Shown here: positions 6,523 to 49,520 of the stretch, in pieces
How positions within the stretch are numbered: position 1 is the stretch's first letter
Layout of the letters: every line of letters begins with the position of its first letter
Translations under genes and position numbers: made by a program
From: Coptis chinensis
Lineage: Eukaryota > Streptophyta > Magnoliopsida > Ranunculales > Ranunculaceae
Direction: 5' to 3'
NCBI GenBank assembly: GCA_015680905.1
Contig: CM027377.1
Span: 37,596,501 to 37,660,500, forward strand
Length of the DNA: 64,000 bases
The notes under the pieces: model-generated
Told to the model about the DNA's origin: nothing
The model's database searches: none
The model's input: only the letters and a program-made list of their open reading frames with translations

Positions 6523-7718
6523 CCTGAAAGCCAACTTTGATTACCATTGTAAGTGGGTCGGATCACTTAAGTCCACACCCACATGGATCAATGATCCATC
6601 TCTAATATAAGCTACTCCCTGGATCGTGGGATATTATGCACTATGGGTTATCCTACTAGATAGAATAGAATCTATCTTAAATCCCTTGTTGCGCAATTAA
6701 AAGTAGGGGGAGTTGGCTATTTTCTAGCTTTCTTTTAAATACCTTGTGTAGGTATTATAAACAGAGTAAGAAAAAGAACAGAAAACTATCTCAAAGATTT
6801 TACTCTCTACTTTCTCCATTCACCAAGGAGTGGGTTTAAAGTGTGGATTCTAAAGGTTGCATCTAGTAACAATCCTACTCAAGAGATGAGGCTTGTAACA
6901 ACAAACAAGGGTTATCATTCTTCATATTCGGGTTTCTTCAGCTAGGACTAAGGTATGTTCTATAACTCGAATTAGCATGTTAATGTGTGATTTACAACCA
7001 TGAAACACCAAGTTTTGACTAATACTAACATATATATGTATATATACACACACATCCTAGTAGATACCACTTGAGCCAAAACACTTTAGATGTGTCATCT
7101 TATGGGGTGATCGGCATTACATTATGAAATCATGTAAGCTAGCTTGTATTAGTTATTTTTTATGGTGATTCAATCGGGCGCCACACAAATTGGATTGGGC
7201 AGCCTCCAACCCAAGCCCAAACAGCAAAGTCCAAAAGAAAGCCCAGTACACCCCCACCTAAATCGCAAAAATCGGAAAAACCTTCTCAACCGGTATCATC
7301 TCTCTCGCGCACTCACCCACCAAAAAAGCAAAAAAAAAAATTGCATATTCTCGCTTTGAAACAAATTGCATTCGCCCGACTATTGGTATTACACAAATTC
7401 AAATTGTATTCGCCCGACAATTGTATTGACAACCACCGAATTTGATTTGAAATCTCGCAAGTCTGAACCCAAAAAGACAAAAAAAAAATTGTATTTTCTC
7501 GTTTTGAGACAAATTGTATTACAAATTGCATTCGAAATTACATGTAAGTGGAATTTGTGTTTGGAAGGGATATGAAAGTGACCAAAAAACAAAAATAAAC
7601 TTCTCAATTTTTTTAGTCCAAACGACCTGGCTATGTCACCTAAGAGAATGCCCAAAAGACCCCATCATATCGTCTAGCTAAAAACCCAAAAGTTTTGTCT
7701 CAAACGACACTCGGAAAC
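6523..7718. other. No gene recognised; local degenerate repeats
   Basis: Around 7360-7550 the phrases 'attgcattcgcccgac' and 'attgtattcgcccgac' recur, along with 'tttgaaacaaattgcat' variants, giving overlapping short open frames on both strands. I read these as repeat-driven and not as genes. Confidence 0.4.
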
Positions 7719-12060: not shown

Positions 12061-15000
12061 CTAGAAGAACTCAAAATCAAGATATTTACCCCCCGACTTC
12101 ATGTCTGTACCAACCATCCTTTTACTGCTACTTCCAACCCCGACAGTGTCAACTGTCCCAAGCTTCCCTGGCAAATCGGTCTCCATTGGCCTTGGCACTT
12201 CAGGAGGTGTACTGCAGCGTATCAATGCCCAATTGACACCCTCAAAGAATGGATGCTGCTTGATCTCAGTTGCTCCCCTCTTCACCCCAAGACGGTGTTG
12301 GGGCTCCTTTACCAGCAAACCCCTGATTAGATCCCTACTCGAGTAACTAGTTGCAGGTGAATCAGGGAACCTCAGCTGCTGTCCAACAACATTGAATAAT
12401 GTTGCTCGATTGCCGGATCCCTTGAATGGAGTCTTTCCATAGAGAAGCTCATGCAAGAAAATACCAAATGTCCACCAATCCACTGCACTTCCATGACCTT
12501 CTCCTTTGATGATTTCTGGGGCAAGGTACTCGTGCGTACCAACAAAAGACATAGAACGTGCGGCTGTTGGCTCAGCTAAAAGCTCAGGCAGAGTGGTAGT
12601 TTGCAGCCCAGTTTCAGCACGATGTTTTTGGGTTTTTTTCTTGCTTTTTTGAGGAAAGATTCGTGGAATGAAGCATGAAGGCTGGATACACACGGAAGAG
12701 GGCTCAATGCAGGCAGGTTGAACACAGAATGCACCACCAGCTCCTCGTTTGGAAGGATCAGACTCTAACGAATTCCTTATTAGGGTGGGTGAGACTACAC
12801 ATCTTAGAGAAAGATCAAAGTCTGAAAGCATTATGTGGCCATCATCACGAACGAGAACATTTTCTGGCTTCAAGTCCCTGTATACAACTCCAAGCATGTG
12901 CAAATACTCAAGGGCCAATAGTACTTCTGCTGCATAAAACCTGATTAACAAGACCAGGATTATCCACAGAAGGCAATAACTTAGACAAAATAAGAATAGC
13001 AAGTACCACCACCTAGGAAGACTAAAATTGCTAAAAAAAAAAGAAGAAAAAAAAAACAGGTAACAATTTAAATAACTTTTCCTTTGTAGCAACAAATTAC
13101 AATAAAAATAAATTAAACCATCAGTGTCTGCATTGAGCGTGAGCTTATGGCATTTTGATGCTTACATATTTAAGTAACAGATTGAGTTTAAGTATAGTTT
13201 TCAATAAGTCCAAGTCAACCAACCCAATTAAATAATAATTCTACTTCATGTAGGGCCATAATGTAGAGTGTAAGGTAGAGTGACTAGTTGAGGTGTGTCA
13301 CATGCACATGCGAACAAAATACACCAGAGATATCAAATAATAATTTGCTCAAAGCGGTGTTAGAAACAGAAACATACTTTTTAAATGCAATACTCCCCCC
13401 AAAAAATTTAAGTAAACCGAGGAAGGGAACAATAAATCCTGCATTAATTTACCAAGATTCAAGACTACCGAAAAGCTCCTTGAGCTCGGAGAGAAAGCAA
13501 AACCAACACACTACTTTGAAAATCCATTAACCAAGCTCAAAGAAATGAACACTGACAATTACACAATGGTGTAATCATTTTTATACATTTAGTCTGAAAC
13601 TTCTATCTTTTATAAGAGGTGATCAAGGTTAAAATGTTAAATGTTAGCGTTTTTTTCATTCTACCCCTCAACAAAGCAGAAAAAACCACCTCTACTGTAA
13701 CTATAGACATAAAGCATTCATCATTGACTAAACTTAGTTTTTCATCCTATCAGGAATAGAGAAAAATATGTAAAGAAACTAAAGATATACAACAGAAAAA
13801 GAAACTCACTTTTTTCAGGAAAAGACTAAGTTACATTGACACGGATAGGTGCGTTCGTATCCAACACGGATACAAAGTGTCTGACACTGCGAAATATAAA
13901 AAAATTGAGGTATATCATTTTCAAAAAAAACCACAGATACAAAGTATCTGCAATATGTGTCCGATATTTGTCCAACACGGACACGTGGATACATATCCAA
14001 CATGGATTATTTTGGAAAATATGGTGTCCATGTAACATATGAAAAGACTACCCCATGTGTAGATATATATATAATGAACGCAAGCATGCCCTTTAGCAAG
14101 CTCCTAAAATGCCAAAGCTGAAAATGCCCTTTTCTCAAAATAACATTCTCCGTCCATAACAGGAGGTCCTTAACCCTCAATAACCTTGCCATTTAGTTAC
14201 ATAAATCCCATACCCACACGGATACATAAAGGCTAACCCAGTGCGAGGTATGGGGAGGGTCAGATGTACTCATCCTCAATTAGAAAATTCATCTACTGCC
14301 ACATAAATGTACCATTTTGCTTTACATTCCTATCTATATATAGACCCACCTTTAAGGTATATAAGTAAGTGAATCTGATACCTTCCACATTTTGTTAGAA
14401 GGATGTGACATTATATATTTACATGGCATCTCTGCATATAACACTTTTAAAAGAAACTCAAAAACTCTTGCTTTTGACTGTCACACTTTCAAAGTGATTT
14501 CGCAACTTAATTAGAAATTCAATTATGAATATGCCATGAGGTGAAGTGTTTATCTAAGGAAGTCAGCGATAACCCCAAACTCTTTTCTAGCAGTTGGGTG
14601 TCATAGATGGTTTTAAGTGCAAGAGTTTAGAAGTATAAGCAACTTTATCTTAGTCATTACTCATTAGCATAGATGACACGACTGAGTACAGCCAACCATA
14701 TTATCATATTTCTGAGTTACACAGACACGGCAAAATACCAAAAATTGAGGTTTATCACATACAAATATACAATATGTGTGTGCGTTGTGTCCGACACAGA
14801 TACGTGGAAACGCATCCAACACTGATTATTTTTGAAATATGGCGTGTCCATGTAACTTGGACATAATTTGATTTTGAAGGAGGAACTACAAACTTACCGA
14901 ATTAGAGGAGTGCTAAATTAATTTAAGATTTGGTGAATAATCAGGATATACATCATAATACTTGTACAAATAAATCAGAAAATGGAACACGCTTTATTTT

Positions 15001-16757
15001 CTCTTTACAAGTTATGGTATCGATAACTTCACTAAAATCATTATTATTTTTTATTCCCCAAGATCATATCATTTTGTAACTATACAGGCCTGATTTTCTA
15101 ATTTATCGTCGCCAACTTATTACAAAGTGAACTAGAATTATTGTGTTGCTAAATAAGTAGTGCAATTCACAATCTACAAAAAGAATCACAAAGACCACCA
15201 TGTAAATCACTACTTTGCATGTGAAGTAATATTTGTGAAGAATGGCAATAGAGTTTCTAAATGTTCCGTAGAAATCAATGATCAGTCGAAAAATAGGTTT
15301 GAAGGCATGTATTGCCATAGAGTTTTCAACAAGGATAGAGGAAAGAATCAAGCTAACAAGACAAATGGTGCAAAATTTAAGAATGTTGCACTTTGTAAAC
15401 TAGAGAAAACAGTTCGGATGCACGTCTACACATATAATTGGGATGAACAATAAATATCACGACAAAAGAAATGGTAAACAATTGAATTGAGACATAAAAC
15501 TGTTATTCAGCATTAATAGCCATACCGTGCTGCATACTCAGAAAAGTGTTTTCCAGGTTGCCGTTGCCTCAGGGTATGCAGATCACCTCCTGGACAGAAC
15601 TCCATGACCAAACATGAGAACCTATCGGTCTCAAAATGTGTGTACAAGGTTGGTAGAAATGGATGGTCCAATAGTTGGAGAATCTCCCTCTCCGTCTGAG
15701 CTCTAGTCAACTTTTTCCTGCTTGCTAGGGAAGCTTTGTCCATAACTTTCATTGCAAAGTAGCACCTAGTCCCACTTAACTCTGAGAGATACACACTCCC
15801 AATGTCCCCACAACCAAGCCGTTTGAGCAGCCTAAAATGACTCATACCCAATATGCCATCCCGTGTTCTAACAGCAAGAATAGCTTTCCATCTAGGATCA
15901 TTTCCTTTGTGAGGCTTATTAGCACTGCCAGTAATATTGCTCCAATTGCTGTCATCACTGAGGCCACTACTATCACTCGCTCTGCTGACACTAGTTTTTG
16001 TACTCTCAAGTGAGTCTCCTTTCACACTCTCTTTAGCACTCTCACTATTTCTCTCCGCACTAAGCATACCATCACTAGTAAGTCCGTCACTCCTGTATGT
16101 ACTGGTGCAGCTGTTGACAATGCTCATAGCTGTGACAACACCCATACTTTCAATGCTGCTGAGGGGACTCACATTACCACTGGGGGGCAAAGAGGCATCC
16201 CAGACGCACTCCTTCTCGTCTGAATCTGGTGGGAGAGACGTGTTATCTGTAGCATGAGATCCACGAGGAACTGGAAATGTAGAAGGCGATGCTGCACCTA
16301 CATCAGTAGGCTCTTCAACCACACTTTCTGCAGGCGAGCGAACAGAGGTACTCAATTTCTGACCAGGAACCCAAATTGCAAGATCATCCAGAAATGGACC
16401 CTTCACAGACAAGCTTCTAACCAAGCATCCAGGCTCCACTTTATTCTGTCCAATTGCTACATAGACTGGCCTCATTAAATCCGTGTCAACTGGTTCCGGT
16501 GGATGACTAGCCCCAGAAAAAGAACTACGACCGCTCTCTTCGTTAGAATCACCACTGTCCTTAAAGGCTACAGTGTCAGGCATAGCTTCCTCCTGCTCAG
16601 GTAATGACCCTTTCCCTTTCCATGATTTTTCATTACCAGGTGATGCTGAATTTGGAGATTTTTTCCCCATGGATTGACCTTCCCTACGAGCATCCGGTAT
16701 CTGACCCACTACAGGCAACTTCCCCGAAACGATTTTTGAGTCCCGAGCTCTTTCCAT
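12061..16757 (-). CDS. AGC-VIII serine/threonine kinase, D6PK/PVPK-1 type
   Basis: Two coding exons, 15526-16757 and 12061-12940, separated by a GT-AG intron of 2585 bases that splits an Arg codon; together they encode 703 residues. The first in-frame ATG is at 16757. Residues 1-300 are a low-complexity Ser-rich region. The kinase domain begins near 311 with the Gly loop GCGDIGSV, then the ATP-binding Lys (AMK, about 337), catalytic RDLKPEN (Asp about 433), and DFD in place of DFG (about 451), the mark of plant AGC-VIII kinases. A Cys-rich insertion ([13 protein letters not shown]) follows before the activation segment [11 protein letters not shown], also typical. The tail ends FEFF, a PDK1-docking-type motif. 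Relatives phosphorylate PIN auxin exporters at the plasma membrane. The N-terminus is longer than in D6PK itself; the exact orthologue is not claimed. Confidence 0.93.
13829..14040. mobile_element. MULE-like MITE in the kinase intron, copy 1
   Basis: Inverted termini read 'gttacattgacac' on the left and 'gttacatggacac' on the right (reverse complement). A 10-base direct repeat 'gaaaagacta' flanks it at 13819-13828 and 14041-14050, the length expected of Mutator-like elements. It is 212 bases and non-coding. Confidence 0.7.
14716..14857. mobile_element. MULE-like MITE in the kinase intron, copy 2
   Basis: It shares the termini ('gttacacagacacgg' and the reverse complement of 'gtgtccatgtaac') and the inner phrases 'aaaattgagg', 'acaatatgtgt' and 'gattatttttgaaatat' with the copy at 13829-14040, in the same orientation. 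It is shorter. Flanking sequences (catatttctga, cataatttga) are only roughly alike, so it is probably older. Confidence 0.6.
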
Positions 16758-17317
16758 TTCTGACAAACTATCATTACATGTAATCCACTAAAAATTACAC
16801 AAACACTCAACCAAGCTTAATATTTCGACAATCTACCTTCCCCAGCGACAATTTTCTCAGAACTATCTTTAACTCTAGAAGTACAAACTAATGATATACC
16901 AAAGTTTGATAGTTCCCAACACACTCTATTCATTCACATAAACCTACAAAATATTTTAAAAAAAAATCACCAATTAATAGCTTGTAACTTTCTTCACATA
17001 TAATCAAGAAACAAGGATACATTTAAACACATTTCCAAATCAAACACTTGAACTAACAAAACCCACATATACTTCAAACCCTCTTCAAGATCAAGAACAT
17101 TGAACATAAAATATTCCTACTTTACCTCAAAAACAAGCAAAGAACATAAACATAAACAAGAAACTAAAAAGACCAAATCCCAAAACCAACACATTTTTCT
17201 TACTCTATATAACTTCACTTAAAACACATAGTGAAAAAAATTTACATGCAGGTAATAATGAAAGGATATTCATACACACTAACACACCAGTTCAAGAAAA
17301 TGACGAATCCTCAGAAC

Positions 17318-28624: not shown

Positions 28625-31600
28625 TCAAGTGTGAAATTTTTTTAACATTCTCACATTCCACGGCTTCTCTATCAGTTTGCCTTCCTGTGTCCGCAACCTG
28701 TAGGTGCCCGCCCCTCCAATATCCACCACCGTGTAAGGTCTCTCCCAGTTTGGACCCAGCTTTCCATCTTTCTCTTTCCTGGTGCTAGGTGTCACTCGGC
28801 GGAGCACCAGGTCGCCTATGTGGAACTGCCTTGGCTTGACCCTCCTGTTGTACTGTTTTTGCAACCTCCGGTGGTACTCCTCCAGCCTTATACGGGCAAT
28901 GTCTCTTCCTTCCTCTGCTAGATTCAGATATGCTGCTAAGATTCTCCAGTTTGAACCCTCCTCCACGACCTTTGTTCGCGTTGTAGCTGCCACCATCTCC
29001 GACGGGATCACAGCCTCCACCCCATAAGCCAATGAAAATGGGGTCTCTTGTGTGGATGACCGAGGTGTGGTCCAGTAGGCCCATAATACATGACTAAGCT
29101 CGTTGGCCCACCCACCCCCCCCCCCCCCTTCTTATCCTCCAACTTCCTCTTTAGGTTATTCATGATGGTCTTGTTAGAAGACTCTGCCTGTCCATTGCCC
29201 TCGAGGTTGTAAGGGGCCGAGAACCCCTATCTTACTTTGTAGGTTTGCAAGAACCTGGCCACCTTTGCTCCCGTAAACTGAGTTCCATTGTCTGCTATGA
29301 TGGCGTACGGCAACCTAAACCTGCAGATAATATTCTCCCATAAAAACTTGATGACTTGTGCTTCCTTCACCTGCAACAGGGGTACGACTTCAATCCATTT
29401 TGTGAAATAATCCGTGGCTGCAAGCATGAACCTCCTTCTACCATTAGCCATGGGCAGCAGTCCCACTATATCTATTGCCCACATTGCAAAAGGCCACGGA
29501 CTTGAGACATTGTGAAGGGGTTCAGCAGGGCCAAATATCAACTGTGCAAATCTCTGATATTTGTCACACCTCTTAGAAAATTCCACGACATCCCTCTTCA
29601 TGTGGGGACAAAAATACCCCTGTGTTAGTAGCCGATGTACCATTGTTCTCCCCGAATGGCTCCCGCAATATCCCTCATGTAGTTCTGCCAACACCTCCTG
29701 GGATAGTCGTGGACCCAAACATTTTAGAAGTGGTCCACTGAAGTTTTTCCGATATAACTCTCCTTCCAGTAGGACATATCTCCTAGATGTCTGCTCCCAT
29801 CTCCTTCTTTCTCTTTTATCTGTGACTTCCTTTCCTGCCAAAAAGTCCTTAATAGGCTCCATCCAACCCTCATTCTCTTCCGTGACCTGGCAAATCTCCA
29901 TCTCATCCTCGGTGCTCGGTTTCTACAGCATTCCCACGTGTATTATTCTCTCCTCCGACCCGAGAATTGCAACTGCTACATATGCTAGGGCATCAGCGTG
30001 CCTGTTCTCTCCCCGGCCCAAGTGAAGGAAACAGAGTTTTGTGAATTTCTCAGCTCATTTACGCACCACATCCAAATATCTTGTCATCCTGGGGCATCGA
30101 GCGGCAAACCTTCCGTTCACTTGACACACCACTAAGTTTGAATCAGAATAGACTGTCAGCTCCTTCACTCCCAAATCCTCGGCCATTCTCAATCCGGCGA
30201 TCACCGCTTAGTACTCTGCCTCATTGTTGGACGCCGCGAACCCGAGTATCATGGTTTGCTCTATTCTGCTATTATCAGGTATAACCAACACGACTCCTAT
30301 GCCGCTATATGCATCGGTAGCCGATCCATCCGCGAATACCCTCCACCCATTCCTCTTATCCCACGGGTCTAGAAGGTCTGGCTCACTCTCCCGCTCCGGT
30401 TCCATAATCATTTCCTCTCCCCACGTGGGATCCTCTGTGGAGAACTCTGCCACCGCCTGCGCCTTCTCTGCGGTTCTTATCTGATACTGTATCTTATAAG
30501 AACTCAGCATCACTGCCCACTTCAACATTCTACCAGATTTTTCCGTTCTCAGTGCTTGCCTCAAAGGCAAATTCGTTACCACCACCACCACATGTGCTTC
30601 AAAGTAGGGTTTCAGCTTCAGGGTTGAAAATACTAATGCCAAGGCATACCTCTCGATTCTACTATATCGTGTCTCTACATCTAACAAAGTTTTGCTCTGA
30701 AAATATAACGGCTTCTCCACCTTGTCGACCACCCGAATTAGATTTGAGCTGACTGCATACTTCGTGGCCCCCAAGCAAGTACAAATACAACTTCTCCCCG
30801 GTCTCGGGCCGTGACAGCAAAAGCATTTTGCCCAAATATTTTTTCAATTCCTAGAATGCCTCCTCACACTCCGCGGTCCATACAAAATCCGGTGTGCTCC
30901 TCAACAGTCGGTACAGCGGTCTACACTTATCAGACGACTTGGAAATGAATCTATTCAGAGCTGTGACCCTTCCTGCTAACCGCTGTACTTCCTTCACATT
31001 CTGCGGAGATGGCATCTCTACCAGGGACCTTATCTGCTCGGGGTTAGCCTCGATTCCCCTATGAGTAACGATGTACCCCAAAACTTTCCCTCAGTAGTCA
31101 CCCGAAAAGTACACTTCTCGGGTTCGGGTTTCAAGTTGTATTTACGTAGTATCCCGGGGTTTCTCGCAACCCTACATATGTTCCTCTTCTGACATACTTT
31201 TTTCCACCATGTCGTCTATATAAATCTCAATTCCCTTCCGAATCTTGCTTTCGAACATTTTCTCACCCAACCGCTAGAAGGTTGCCCCTGCATTTTTCAA
31301 ACCAAACGGCATCCTCGTATAGCAGTAAGTACCGCCCTCCACCACAAACGAGGTCTTCTCCTGATCGGGCCCATACATCGCGACCTGATTATACCCCATC
31401 GACGTGTCCATGAAGGAAAAAATCTTGAACCCGGCGTCCTGTCCACCAACTCATCTACTCGCGGCATGGGATAGCTGTCCTTTGGACACTCTTGATTTAC
31501 ATCAGTAAAGTCTACACACATATGCACTTTCCCATTCTTTTTTGGTACCACGACTATATTAGATAACTAGTCTGTGAACTCTACATCTCGGATTATTCAC

Positions 31601-43811: not shown

Positions 43812-43996
43812 GTATATTGTTTTTTTTAATAAAAAAAAAGTTGAAACCAAAGTGAAAGTTTGTGGTTGTTTTTTGTAAACCCTTACCCTTCCATGAAGTC
43901 TATTGTGTTCTCTTTAGCGAGCTGTGTTTGTTTTATCTCAGTAAGTACTTTCGAATGTTTTATTGTCACTAGCAAATTCATCACTCTAGTTATACG

Positions 43997-44072
43997 TGTA
44001 ATTCTACGCTGACACATTATTTTGACACAGTCAACCAACACACTGAGGTGGCTGGTGATGTGTCATGTCCAC
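43997..44072 (+). repeat. MULE left terminal inverted repeat
   Basis: 76 bases; the inner part ends 'gtgtcatgtccac'. It pairs with 49433-49509. The outermost 20 bases match the other end at about 16 positions. Confidence 0.92.
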
Positions 44073-44275
44073 CTAAGAAAAGTCAAACTCAATAATTTTG
44101 GATTTCTTATTTTTTTCTATTTTCTTTGTTTTAATCCAAAAACCCTTCGTATCTTCTTCTCTTTTTATTTCTCAAACACAATTCAGACCCACGCACTCTC
44201 TCTAACTATTAATTTGCACCAATCAAAAAACGCACTTTCTCCTTATTTGCAATTGTTTACTTCTTGTTTTTAGGA

Positions 44276-46877
44276 ATGGAGTCAAGAATTTCTAAATTTG
44301 ACGATATAAGTATGAGAATGTATGAGAAGGGCATCAGTGATAGAGAATTGGAAGAAACAATTGGTGTTGATGTGGGTATGGAGAATGAATTTGTTCAAGA
44401 CGAAAAAGTGGGAGATCTGGAAATAGGATGGTGTTTGATACTGTCGAAGGATTGTTTGAATATTACACTAAATACGGTTATGAGAATGGGTTTCCAGTAA
44501 AGAAAAGGTCTTCGTCGAAGGGAGATGATGGGGTGGTTAGATGGGTGCTTTTGCATGTTCTCGATCAGGCAAGATAGAGAGCACTTCAAGAAATGCTTTT
44601 AAATTGCATCCAGTTACCAAAACTCAATGCAATGCAAAGCTTAGAGCTGCTTTAGATTATGATGGAAAGTGGAAGGTGACATTTGTAGTACTTGATCATA
44701 ATCATGGTTTGAGTCCAGGAAAATCACGATATTTCATAAGAAATCGTAAATTGAACCGACGTGTTAAAAGAAAACTTGAGATAAATTATCAAGCGTGTAT
44801 TCGGCCAAACAAAAGCTATTCTTCTTTGGCGGTGGAAGCGGGTGGACTTGATAAACTGTCGAATTTAGGTAAAGATTGTCGCAATTATGTCGAGAAATCC
44901 AGACGATTAAGGCTTGGCAATGGGGATGCTGCAGCTGTTTAGAACTACTTCGCAAAAATGCAAGCAGATAATTATAATTTCTACTTCCTAATCGATTTAG
45001 ATAACGATGGTAGAATAAGGAATTTATTTTGGGCAGATGCAAGGAGCAGAGCAGCATATGAGGAGTTCGGTGATGTGATCACGTTCGACACAACTTACTT
45101 AACTAATAAGTATGACATGCCGTTTGCTCCTTTTGTGGGTGTGAATCATCACAGTCAGTCAATCTTGTTGGGTTGTGCTTTAATATCTCGTGAAGACACC
45201 AAGACTTTTTCTTGGGTTTTTCAGACTTGGCTTGGTTGTATGGGTGGTCATGCTCCTAATGTAATAATTACAGACCAGGACACAGCCATGCAAAATGCTA
45301 TAGAAATTGTGTTTCCAAATGCACGACATAGGTGGTGTATATGGCACATCATGAAAAAGTTACCTAAAAAATTACGGGCTCATAAGAAGTACGAGTCAAT
45401 TAAGTTTGAGATACAACAAGCTGTTTATAATTTCTTAACAACCACTAAATTCGAAGGAAGATGGAATAAGTTTATTGAGAAGTATGATCTTAAGGAAATT
45501 AAATGGTTAGATGGTTTGTATAAGGAGAGTCGTCGTTGGGTTCCTGCGTTTGTAAAAGATATTTTTTGGGCGGGAATGTCAAGTACTCAAAGAAGTGAGA
45601 GCATGAATGCATTTTTTGACGGGTACATCAATTCGAAGACTACATTGAAGCAATTTGTCGAGCAATATGAGAATGCATTACGGAGCAAGGCAGAGAAAGA
45701 AAACCAAGAAGATTTTAATTCCTTCAACTCCCGAGTCCCATGTATTACTCACTATAAAATTGAGAAACAATTTCAGGATGCTTATACAACTGCAAAATTC
45801 AAGGAGTTTCAGAAGGAGTTAACCAGGAAGCTCTACTGTGACGTGTCTTCAGTTAAAAAGGAATGTGACATTGAGGCATATGAAATTTCCAAAGATGTTA
45901 TGGTTGGAGAGGTAAATCTACAACTTACTTTTACAGTTTGCTTTAACCCATACGACAGTGACATCAAGTGCAATTGTCGTTTGTTTGAGTTTAGAGGAAT
46001 CTTATGTAAACACATTATTGTCGTATTGATTCAAAAAAAGATTCAAAATATACCTGAAAAGTACATTCTTCATCGATGGAGGAAAGATGTAAAGAGGTGT
46101 CACACAAAGGTTAAAATCAGTTACTTTGATTGGATACAAAACCCTGAGAATGAACGTTTTGATAGGATGTGTAATGCCTTCTATGAAACAGCAGACTTGG
46201 CAACCGACAATGAAGATAAGACAAATATTGTTATGAAGTGGATTAAGGGCTTGAATAATGAACTAAAGAAAGGCAAAGGAGCATGTGTGAGTAGTCAGCC
46301 TACTATATGTGGAAGTGATCAGCCTATTGCATATGGAAGTGATTAGCCTACTGCATGTGAAACTAGTGGTAATGTTCATACTACAACTAAGGATAATGGC
46401 CTTATTCGTAGTCCTTAATCAGTTCGTGGTGCAGGCCGTCCACCTTTCAAGCGGAAGACAAGCAAGGTAGAACAAGCTGTTAAAAAGTTGCAAGAAAAGA
46501 AGAAGAAAGAGGGGAAGCGAGAATAAGTCACTAAAATGAACCAAGGAAAGAAGAAGAAAGGGACGAGCGCAATTGAAAAAACAATTAATGATTTAGATTT
46601 AGAGAAGGTTAGCAAACAACCTTAATGATTTTACTTTTTTTTTAGCTATTTGCGCATTTGTATGAATTTTACGTTATATGTAGGACCCAATTGGTGGATC
46701 GGAAGTTATGGAGTCTGGCGAGACACAAGAAAGCATTCCATTAAAGGTTTCTATTTATCATAGTTTATTGTTGTTGTTGTTTTTTAAAAAGTTGTTTCAA
46801 TGAATTGGATTTATATTCTTGGTACGTAGGATATGATTGGTGGGGCAGAACTTATGGAGTTTGGTGGAAGCATTTAG
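44276..46877 (+). pseudogene. FAR1/FRS-like MULE transposase, decayed
   Basis: The layout is that of FAR1-related proteins and their MULE source: an N-terminal FAR1 zinc-binding region (44430-44740), the MULE DDE core (FDTTY near 45085, ITDQD near 45270, RSES near 45600), and a SWIM zinc finger (CNC...CKH, about 45970-46010). The long open part is 44958-46345. Exon 1 ends at 46607; two small related exons follow at 46684-46746 (DPIGGSEVMESG) and 46830-46877 (DMIGGAELMEFG). Breaks: frame changes near 44435 and 44543, a TAG at about 44939-44941 just before the core, and stops at about 46343, 46418 and 46524. It would normally cut and paste the element by binding the TIRs. I judge it inactive. 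Confidence 0.88.
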
Positions 46878-47789
46878 TAGGCATGAATGAAGAATGAGAG
46901 TTAGTCGAGTAAACTGTATGGAAGACGTACATGTGATAGGGAAAGAACGAGAGCAGTTTGTCTCTTTGCACTTGAGTTTTGTCTCTTAGCATGGTAGAGA
47001 ATTTTAAGTATCAGTTTTAGAAGATAGACACAGGTTTGCTGGCCGTGTTGTAGCTGGTTGTGTTTCACTGAACTCGTGTGTGAATTGTGAATCATGTTAA
47101 AGACCTTTGGTTATTTGGAAAAAGATTGTTGTTGATTCTTAACATAGTTCATTCTAGGTAACCTTAGTGTTTATTCTCTTAGTCTGTCATTTCTGTTTTT
47201 ACATTTGTTGCTTCCTAGTCAAGGATATTGCACTGTCAGAAATTAAAATTAAAACCACACTGTCAGAAACCGTCCAAACTATATTGTACTGCAGCTTGCA
47301 ATTTGTAATGTCAATAACCATGATTTCAAATTTGTATTGTAAAATTTCCGAAAGGGGCAATGATAGCTCTAGCCTGTAACTTTCTATGCACTACAGTCCG
47401 TAACAATTGATCAATTTCACCAAATACAAGCATATTACGTTACTGTTCTATAACAGACCAACTTCGCCGAAAAAACAATTAGCATTACAAGTCTGGCTCG
47501 AAATTGGCAATTGAAAATTGCCTTTGAATTTTATTATATAAACGAATATTCTAATGAGAACAAAAAACAGAAAACTAAATAACCATTGCTTCTAAATAAT
47601 GGATACAAATTACAGAGAGAACTAGAACTATACATTTGAATGAAGAGGAGCACAAAGGACGATGTTTTGAAATGATTACCAACTCCCACAATACAACGGG
47701 TAGTTGTAACATAAATAGAATAATCATTTCAAAACAAAATGGCTGGGTCAATTAGCAACATCCCTGCAGCCTCTCACAAACAAGACAGG

Positions 47790-49160
47790 TCATCTGTCCC
47801 ACATGGCCTGAAATATTGGAGGTCTATTCTTCAACCAAAGCACCATTTCCTTGTCCAGGGAAGATTTATTCACAACGTCATCTAGCATCGGACTACCAAA
47901 AACTTGAGGGGCACTCTTAAAAGACCATATTCTGTCTTTCAGCCACGGTCTCTAGGACTGCTTCTCCTGCCAGAAAAGGGTATTGTGAGCACACAGATAC
48001 AGACACACACACAAAAGACAACCATACTTCTGACGCTCTAAACATAAATCTGCATGTTCATAATCACAATTACAAACAAGAGTGTTATACAATGAGTGCA
48101 ACAAGAAAAGGAGCTTATGTTACTTACCACAATAAAGAATTTTGAAGTTCTCCCATAAGATCATTAGAGCCTGATGGATCGTGACCATGTATTTTGGACC
48201 TAATGTCATTTAACAAGGATTCCTCTGTATGAGAAACCATGCACTCAAGAAGTTCCTCAACAAGTGAACCTTCTCCTTTCTAGAGGACGGAAACTACCTC
48301 TTCAGGATTCAGTTTCTTCAGTGGGGGTGGAGCTTTTTTTGGGTCATGGTATATACATCTCATTACGTATCTCACCTGAAATAAACAAATACAAATCAGA
48401 TCATGGATCCAATAAGAATGAAACTACCGCTCTGTTGCATCATTATCTATCAATATAGTCAATTAATGGTTTCTGGAACACCATTTAACAAGAATATTGG
48501 TGCGTGAAAAGTATTCACAATTAATAGTTGTGCCTCCTTATCCAGTGATTACGATTGGAAAGAGAACTTGCACAACCTATCCAAAAATTTAAAAGGTAAA
48601 AAAGATACCAGTTTATGGCTAAGAAACCTTTTCTACCAAAGGTTGAGGAGATGATGGCTGGCTGAACTTGATGTTTTAATTAAAGAAGATATATACTCAT
48701 TATAATTTCTGTTAAGCTAAGTGACTATAGGGTAAATATACCCAAATCAAAATAATCTTCTTCAGATACATAGTTCAACTCACAAGATTCTAGCATCAAC
48801 CGATGCCGGTCCAGCATTCCATGACACTCCATAAGGACCTGGCGGGAAAAAAATAAGTGGCTATTACACTCAGAATTCACTTGACCATTTTGAAAACAGA
48901 ATACTTTTTGAGCGCTCCTTCAGTGCAGAATGGTGATTAAAGAAAAAATAAATAAAAATGAATAAACTAAAACATAGTATTATCCTTTCAGTTAGGCAAA
49001 TTATACAAACTCAGTATCCACAACACCATATGGGAAATTCTGATGAAAACCACTCATATTGTACCTTTTGATAAGCCCCTTCTCCAATCAAATTCAAATA
49101 GCTACCGCGACAGATTTGACTTCCACATAAACAAATAGAAGCTTCATACTCTTTCTTACT
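47790..49160 (-). pseudogene. Captured fragments of an ATXR3/SDG2-type H3K4 methyltransferase gene
   Basis: Four exon-like pieces with splice sites kept, in gene order on the minus strand: 49065-49160 (post-SET part, CLCGSQICRGSYLNL), 48784-48838 (HGMLDRHRLMLES), 48128-48375 (VRYVMRCIYHDPKKAPPPL ... KGEGSLVEELLE) and the terminal exon 47790-47966, ending FQAMWDR and a stop. These match the region after the SET domain and the C-terminus of ATXR3 as I know the family. Intermediate exons are missing between pieces 2 and 3 and between 3 and 4. Two in-frame TAG codons are present: after SVL in piece 3, where Trp is expected, and after EKQS in piece 4, where Gln is expected. Introns are kept, so capture was from genomic DNA. 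The SET domain itself is absent, so no enzyme can be made. Confidence 0.85.
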
Positions 49161-49432
49161 CTGCAATAAAAAAAAATAGTGATATCATCAAATGAGGAAA
49201 CCATCTTCTTCAGACATGATGAGTCATGACGAGATACAAACGGGATGTTCTTTGTCGACACTACATCAACCTATTTGGGTTTGATTTTGGGGTGGAAATT
49301 TTGGGAGAATGAATTTGGGTTATTCCAATTTTTTATTTCTAGTAGTAGCGGAGGAGAAAGAGAGCGGCGAGAAGGTAAACGTTTTTTTATCGCAGAAACG
49401 AAAAGAAAAATGGTATGTTTGATTTTTGCTAC

Positions 49433-49509
49433 GTGGACATGACACGTCACCAGCCACCTCAGTGTGTTGGTTGACTGTGTCGATATCCTGTGTCAGTGTA
49501 GTATTACTG
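49433..49509 (-). repeat. MULE right terminal inverted repeat
   Basis: 77 bases, the reverse complement of the left end with few differences; followed directly by the ctagttatacg duplication. Confidence 0.92.
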
Positions 49510-49520
49510 CTAGTTATACG

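Follow-up and report, generated by a model that had tools for sequence, protein, structure and literature searches.

A Mutator-like element of Coptis chinensis with a broken transposase gene and a reversed piece of the host gene ATXR3

The window analysed here, 64,000 nucleotides of the Coptis chinensis genome (assembly GCA_015680905.1, contig CM027377.1, positions 37,596,501 to 37,660,500), contains at 43997-49509 a Mutator-like element (MULE) of the FAR1-MULE-SWIM type, the label FAR1-type referring to domain make-up alone. The element has a broken transposase gene and, downstream of it and in the opposite orientation, a piece of the host gene ATXR3. We interpret this piece as a silenced passenger: ATXR3 DNA would have been captured once in a transposase-bearing MULE family and would then have spread with the element, drifted and been silenced, a history to which we assign a probability of roughly 0.85. 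This interpretation builds on the anatomy of the element, the source of its cargo, the spread of both as a unit, the loss of the SET exons, a nonsense codon shared among copies, near-neutral change in the captured exons and the pattern of mutation.

Anatomy of the element and source of its cargo

The ends of the element are set by the flanking duplication, and its earlier boundaries stay unchanged. A previous description made from the letters of the window (the sequence-only reading) had claimed complete terminal inverted repeats (TIRs) and an 11-base target-site duplication (TSD), and both are borne out: the TIRs form a 102-nt pair, 84% complementary, with the same ends in two collinear copies, and CTAGTTATACG stands exactly on both sides (Table 1). 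These two copies, at C3:100.30 Mb and C2:9.15 Mb, are collinear with it from end to end and lie in different flanks with their own TSDs (by eye, 11/11 and 9/10 bases), which rules out that the TIRs belong to two different elements. Given by locus, the TSDs read by eye are 11 bases in L009 and 9 of 10 in L010, and none was seen in L011. Near the right end, sequence similar to 49266-49414 (74-91%) recurs at many other genomic sites, several of them adjoining a TIR copy.

Long TIRs (typically 100-500 bp in MULEs), a TSD in the 9-11-bp range and a MULE transposase domain place the element among MULEs. MULE TIRs, a 9-11-bp TSD and a captured host gene fragment, here the ATXR3 piece, are also what it has in common with Pack-MULEs as outlined in passages of PMC3310237. 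The same passages define Pack-MULEs as nonautonomous, and the window element, which contains transposase sequence, though broken, therefore falls outside the strict definition. It is not an autonomous MULE either, as the transposase frame is not intact. Of the near full-length transposase gene described by the sequence-only reading, the length holds and the FAR1, MULE and SWIM domains are present; the gene is broken, however, the coding sequence being spread over three frames besides carrying an in-frame TAG. None of the 19 further transposase loci, four of which are partial, has an open frame spanning the whole gene; the longest, in L022, runs for 627 codons without a stop, in a scan of frames without an intron model.

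Table 1. Features of the ATXR3-bearing MULE, in window coordinates unless another location is given
Feature	Position	Strand	Remarks
Left TSD CTAGTTATACG	43986-43996	.	Direct reading; same as 49510-49520
Left TIR	43997-44099	+	Inverted-repeat pair 43998-44099 / 49406-49507; occurs in other copies too
Transposase gene, broken	44276-46877	+	Start 44276 by eye; probable exon reading
FAR1 domain	about 44547-44714	+	Pfam PF03101, 1e-10
In-frame stop TAG	44940-44942	+	Read in transposase frame
MULE domain	about 45075-45359	+	Pfam PF10551, 8e-38
SWIM domain	about 45960-46037	+	Pfam PF04434, 7e-8
Last stop of transposase gene	46875-46877	+	In a probable exon read by eye
Left capture junction	46918-46933	.	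Host-like sequence begins at 46934
Captured ATXR3-locus segment (3' exons, introns, 3' flank)	46934-49241	-	Seven pieces matching C9 65.8228-65.8272 Mb (L013 5252-9687), 87-96% identity
Stretch in captured segment without host-locus match	47233-47334	.	Filler or diverged
Last ATXR3 exon piece	47793-47951	-
Junction	48053-48062	.	About 796 host bases with two coding exons missing; imperfect microhomology
ATXR3 exon piece	48127-48369	-	Broken by TAG 48280-48282 (host TGG)
Junction	48737-48741	.	About 571 host bases holding exons missing
ATXR3 exon piece	48740-48838	-	Cut by deletion
ATXR3 exon	49062-49157	-	Directly after the SET exons
Right subterminal stretch	49242-49405	.	49266-49414 does not match the ATXR3 locus
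Right TIR	49406-49509	-	Inverted-repeat pairing
Right TSD CTAGTTATACG	49510-49520	.	Direct reading; 11 bp exact
Other places with ATXR3 piece	C3:100.30, C2:9.15, C1:34.39, C3:99.28, C8:6.85, C2:86.15 Mb

The sequence-only reading presupposed an ATXR3 gene elsewhere that matches the captured exons, and one such host locus exists, on C9 (L013); a stretch of 69 residues from this gene matches the genome once. The gene carries a GYF_ATXR3 domain (PF25531, 2e-7) and, in one of its SET exons, a SET match (PF00856, 1e-4), and further exons of this large gene lie upstream of the captured stretch on the same strand. It thus combines the SET domain with the ATXR3-type GYF domain that mark ATXR3/SDG2, whereas the captured piece has no SET domain: the match begins at L013 5252, immediately beyond the last SET exon, so that the piece is without the catalytic domain. 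Of the four antisense ATXR3 exons previously described, the capture and the orientation stand, but the cargo is a decayed 3' fragment that lacks the SET domain and further exons and contains a TAG. The matched stretch is also larger than the 47790-49160 assigned to those exons.

Relative to the host locus, the captured segment lacks internal stretches of about 230, 48, 796, 571 and 506 bases, and at several breaks there are short matches between the two sides. The stretches of about 230, 48 and 506 bases sit nearer the ATXR3 3' flank. The two largest hold ATXR3 exons, which rules out later insertion into the host gene; because of these exons, the 571- and 796-base gaps are losses in the captured copy. 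The 48-base stretch is also present in three dispersed ATXR3 fragments (L017-L019), pointing likewise to a loss in the captured copy.

These dispersed fragments represent a second kind of segment with the last ATXR3 exons (L017 4310-6821, L018 and L019; C4:97.93, C9:65.98 and C9:65.94 Mb). They are 97-98% alike over more than 4 kb, and their ATXR3 exons are interrupted by inserted DNA of about 1.36 kb, which has 95-bp inverted ends. They are not copies of the window MULE, which they match within 47421-48062 at 86-93%. Compared with all three, the second-last coding exon of C9 ATXR3 has two single-base insertions, at L013 about 7484-7489 (C9 about 65,824,983-65,824,988), that would alter the last part of the protein; this apparent frame break may be either an assembly error or a real truncation.

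Spread and decay of the ATXR3-bearing copies

A search for further copies with the same TIRs and ATXR3 insert, as the sequence-only reading had proposed, found the piece or part of it in MULE context at six other places, seven including the window. The C3:100.30 and C2:9.15 copies are complete and collinear, and the other four are shortened, internally deleted or split by other sequence. The five best copies (window included) are 2.6-4.3% apart from one another and 4.4-5.3% from host ATXR3. The C8:6.85 copy is more diverged (5.3-6.4% from the five best, 8.1% from the host), and the short C2:86.15 piece, over just 210 columns, is 4.8-7.5% from the five best and 3.8% from the host. The copy tree is almost a star, with two of its five inner branches supported at 0.91 and 0.99. 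Element and cargo thus spread as a unit; that the capture happened once we infer from the shared junctions and similar distances.

The following history would account for these copies. In their ancestor, the stretch downstream of the transposase would have been replaced once by reverse-oriented DNA copied from the 3' part of C9 ATXR3. Error-prone gap repair or template switching within the element is the likely route, proposed in view of the internal losses and of the short matches at several breaks. The enlarged element, cargo included, then reached at least six further sites, presumably while the family transposase was active, driven by its own transposase or that of a relative. The ATXR3 piece has drifted and encodes nothing usable, and host methylation would have covered element and cargo alike.

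To compare selection on the two parts, we calculated ratios of nonsynonymous to synonymous change (pN/pS). For the transposase, over window 44943-46346, the five loci with the ATXR3 piece were compared with one another and with 8 of the 15 loci lacking it. Values were 0.16-0.34 for L024, L025, L028, L031, L034 and L035, 0.38-0.84 for L026 and L027, and 0.25-0.86 among the ATXR3-bearing loci, which shows past purifying selection. The captured exons gave a pooled pN/pS of 0.82 across all 10 pairwise comparisons of five copies (0.55-1.26 for individual pairs; partial C8:6.85 and C2:86.15 copies left out), and the nonsense TAG at 48280-48282 is found in all three copies that keep the site. The captured ATXR3 piece looks to be evolving near neutrally.

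Changes unique to one of the five copies numbered 132 in 2102 aligned columns of the captured part, 65 of them C-to-T. Per site-branch, C-to-T changes in the captured part were 11/300 at CG, 20/660 at CHG and 34/2880 at CHH (Fisher tests against CHH, p 0.002 for CG and 0.001 for CHG); in the transposase part they were 17/330, 9/285 and 22/2070 in the same order (sites times five). Silenced plant transposons are usually methylated in CG and CHG, and the pattern indirectly fits deamination of methylated cytosine in these two contexts. The host side, to which changes on the stem of the MULE copies are also counted, had 58 changes, including 11 C-to-T and 24 T-to-C, of which the latter may represent C-to-T changes on the stem of the MULE copies.

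Several points weigh against the passenger interpretation. First, the passivity of the ATXR3 cargo is something we infer. Second, divergence is lower in the captured exons than in the rest of the captured segment for 9 of the 10 pairs of copies, and weak constraint on them is possible, given that the value of 0.82 comes from few changes in non-independent pairs with the two partial copies omitted. Third, the nonsense site is retained in just three copies, and three of the five inner branches of the tree are supported at just 0.67-0.73. Lastly, the C-to-T pattern differs among copies (just 7 of 20 changes in C2:9.15), and the CG class alone is not specific to the copies because the host side has 4 C-to-T changes at 60 CG sites.

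Relatives with other cargoes and known capture systems

When the genome was searched with the transposase half, 50 matches came back, and scoring of 40 among 196 candidates yielded at least 20 loci. Cargo was assigned by DNA match for 17 of 20 transposase loci (L026, L029 and L039 left out), with Pfam run on representatives only. Five of the 20 carry the ATXR3 piece (L021-L023, L037, L040), five a SOUL-domain stretch (L025, L027, L031, L032, L034), with two more holding its neighbouring part alone (L028, L033), and five a WD40 plus DUF642 stretch (L024, L030, L035, L036, L038). Pfam scores for the representatives were 3e-20 and 3e-23 for SOUL, 2e-12 for DUF642 and, below the curated cut-off, 7e-5 for the WD40 repeat. 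Fifteen of the loci have no ATXR3 piece; in 14 of them similarity to the window extends as far as 46908-46922, after which the sequence differs, and in L038 it stops at 46284. Most relatives share about 570 bp of family sequence past the junction; L026 has about 190 bp of it and L027 none. Past the position matching window 46917, L027 instead has 13 bases beyond family sequence in common with the window element (TAAACTGTATGGA) before its other cargo begins, hinting at a common junction history. Three relatives read to the right end (E25, E33 and E24) have both TIRs and TSDs of 8-10 bases (by eye, just 8 exact, 10 and 9, respectively).

Candidate sources of the SOUL cargo lie at C6:87.970 and C1:34.315-34.318 Mb (81-95%), and a candidate source of the DUF642 part at C8:89.53 Mb (94-98%, query 471-612). 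The latter was dropped as a WD40 source, since its match lies in the DUF642 part; for the WD40 part, the matches are at other places and reach 77-88% only. The WD40 plus DUF642 composite (L035 5270-5611, L043, L024) apparently reflects two captures within one element. In the copies read, the SOUL, WD40, DUF642 and ATXR3 frames all run opposite to the transposase; a strict antisense rule for the family is ruled out by a reversed SOUL-like stretch (71%) in L026 and a SOUL piece turned relative to the TIR in L049. Two 3.2-kb elements (C8:14974095-14977327, read in its first part, and C2:87048509-87051744) have the same TIRs and a SOUL piece, and because they are too short to hold a transposase as well, they are likely true Pack-MULEs of the same family.

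Captures of this type are known. Passages of PMC2528002, from 2008, describe transposase-bearing grapevine elements with antisense captured pieces together with the idea of antisense regulation, and further report ULP1 pieces downstream of a MULE transposase in both orientations and a pentatricopeptide repeat (PPR) gene piece reversed in a CACTA family. The novelty claimed for a transposase-bearing, gene-capturing MULE is therefore lost; the window element is another example of a known capture type, and the general antisense idea is already in print. PMC13317346, a review, covers the silencing of donor genes by captured sequences.

The grapevine systems in those passages of PMC2528002 resemble ours in several ways. 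Cactavine-5 has PPR coding sequence and a 3' untranslated part, reversed, downstream of its transposase, as in the window element; copies of Hatvine-6, like members of the window MULE family, share transposase and TIRs while the rest varies; and a Mutator family contains both exons and introns of a cellulose synthase gene of the host. Cactavine-5 is, however, a CACTA and Hatvine-6 a hAT element, whereas ours is a FAR1-type MULE with ATXR3 and relatives with SOUL or WD40/DUF642. For the cellulose-synthase copies, the passages leave the presence of a transposase unstated, whereas the window element has a transposase gene. In ULP1-carrying MULEs such as KAONASHI, too, a captured host domain lies downstream of the transposase, reversed in KI-MULEs (passages of PMC2528002 and PMC13317346). 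Their ULP1 domain is described there as strongly conserved in eudicots, whereas the ATXR3 piece of the window element has decayed and occurs in a single subfamily. ULP1 itself gave no match in the selected frames to which our Pfam scan was limited.

By title, no capture of ATXR3 and no Pack-MULE capture of a SET gene was found among the literature matches listed. On its own, the window element is an ordinary gene-fragment capture that needs no regulatory claim to explain it. The family, by contrast, is a natural series with one transposase lineage, one slot, several cargoes, a known ATXR3 source and several copies of each, with which one could test in a controlled way whether the cargo alters silencing of the transposon or of the donor gene.

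Alternative readings

The sequence-only reading had proposed that a transposon carrying part of a chromatin regulator could act on its own silencing. Nothing in the sequence evidence supports this for ATXR3, and nothing singles out a chromatin gene, because there is little constraint on the exons, the same kind of C-to-T changes marks cargo and element, and unrelated genes fill the same slot. That the captured piece makes antisense or small RNAs acting in trans on ATXR3, and hence on transposon-silencing chromatin, strikes us as improbable. The piece and the transposase are convergent; the window element contains, free of mismatches, 248 of the 524 21-mers and 208 of the 512 24-mers in the four host exons; and seven places, the window among them, have the piece or part of it. 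However, the mutation pattern suggests long methylation, which would limit transcription; SOUL or WD40/DUF642 pieces occupy the slot elsewhere, so that a chromatin target is no family feature; and PMC13317346 notes, in its relevant passages, selection against the silencing of essential donor genes.

A more elaborate proposal is that one slot, from the transposase stop to the right TIR, has been refilled with ATXR3, SOUL or WD40 plus DUF642 pieces with the transposase remaining under selection, and that ATXR3 small RNAs tie silencing of the element to H3K4 methyltransferase dose, so that the host could not silence it freely. We regard this as very unlikely.

The second gene of maize MuDR is named mudrB, and the ATXR3 piece occupies the position of this second convergent gene, in sense relative to the right TIR. 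The right TIR might promote sense transcription of the piece and so yield a chimeric RNA or protein, as in expressed Pack-MULEs. Passages of PMC3310237 describe MuDR as two convergent genes with promoters in the TIRs, the transposase being read from one end, a layout like that of the window element; the second unit is a MULE gene in MuDR and a captured host fragment here. A functional sense product is nonetheless hard to credit, given the nonsense codon in all three copies with the site, the pooled pN/pS of 0.82 and the missing exons. Least probable of all is a pair of unrelated events, a MULE and a later, separately arriving ATXR3 fragment: L017-L019 do carry the ATXR3 3' end, so that the region was copied more than once, but their match to the window element is confined to the short stretch given above, seven places pair the piece with MULE sequence, and the two best copies are collinear at all junctions with different TSDs.

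Elsewhere in the window, two open frames on the minus strand at 12061-16787 match protein kinase (PF00069) and are probably exons of one gene. At 29227-29922, also on the minus strand, lie the integrase domains PF17921 and PF00665, as found in long terminal repeat retrotransposons.

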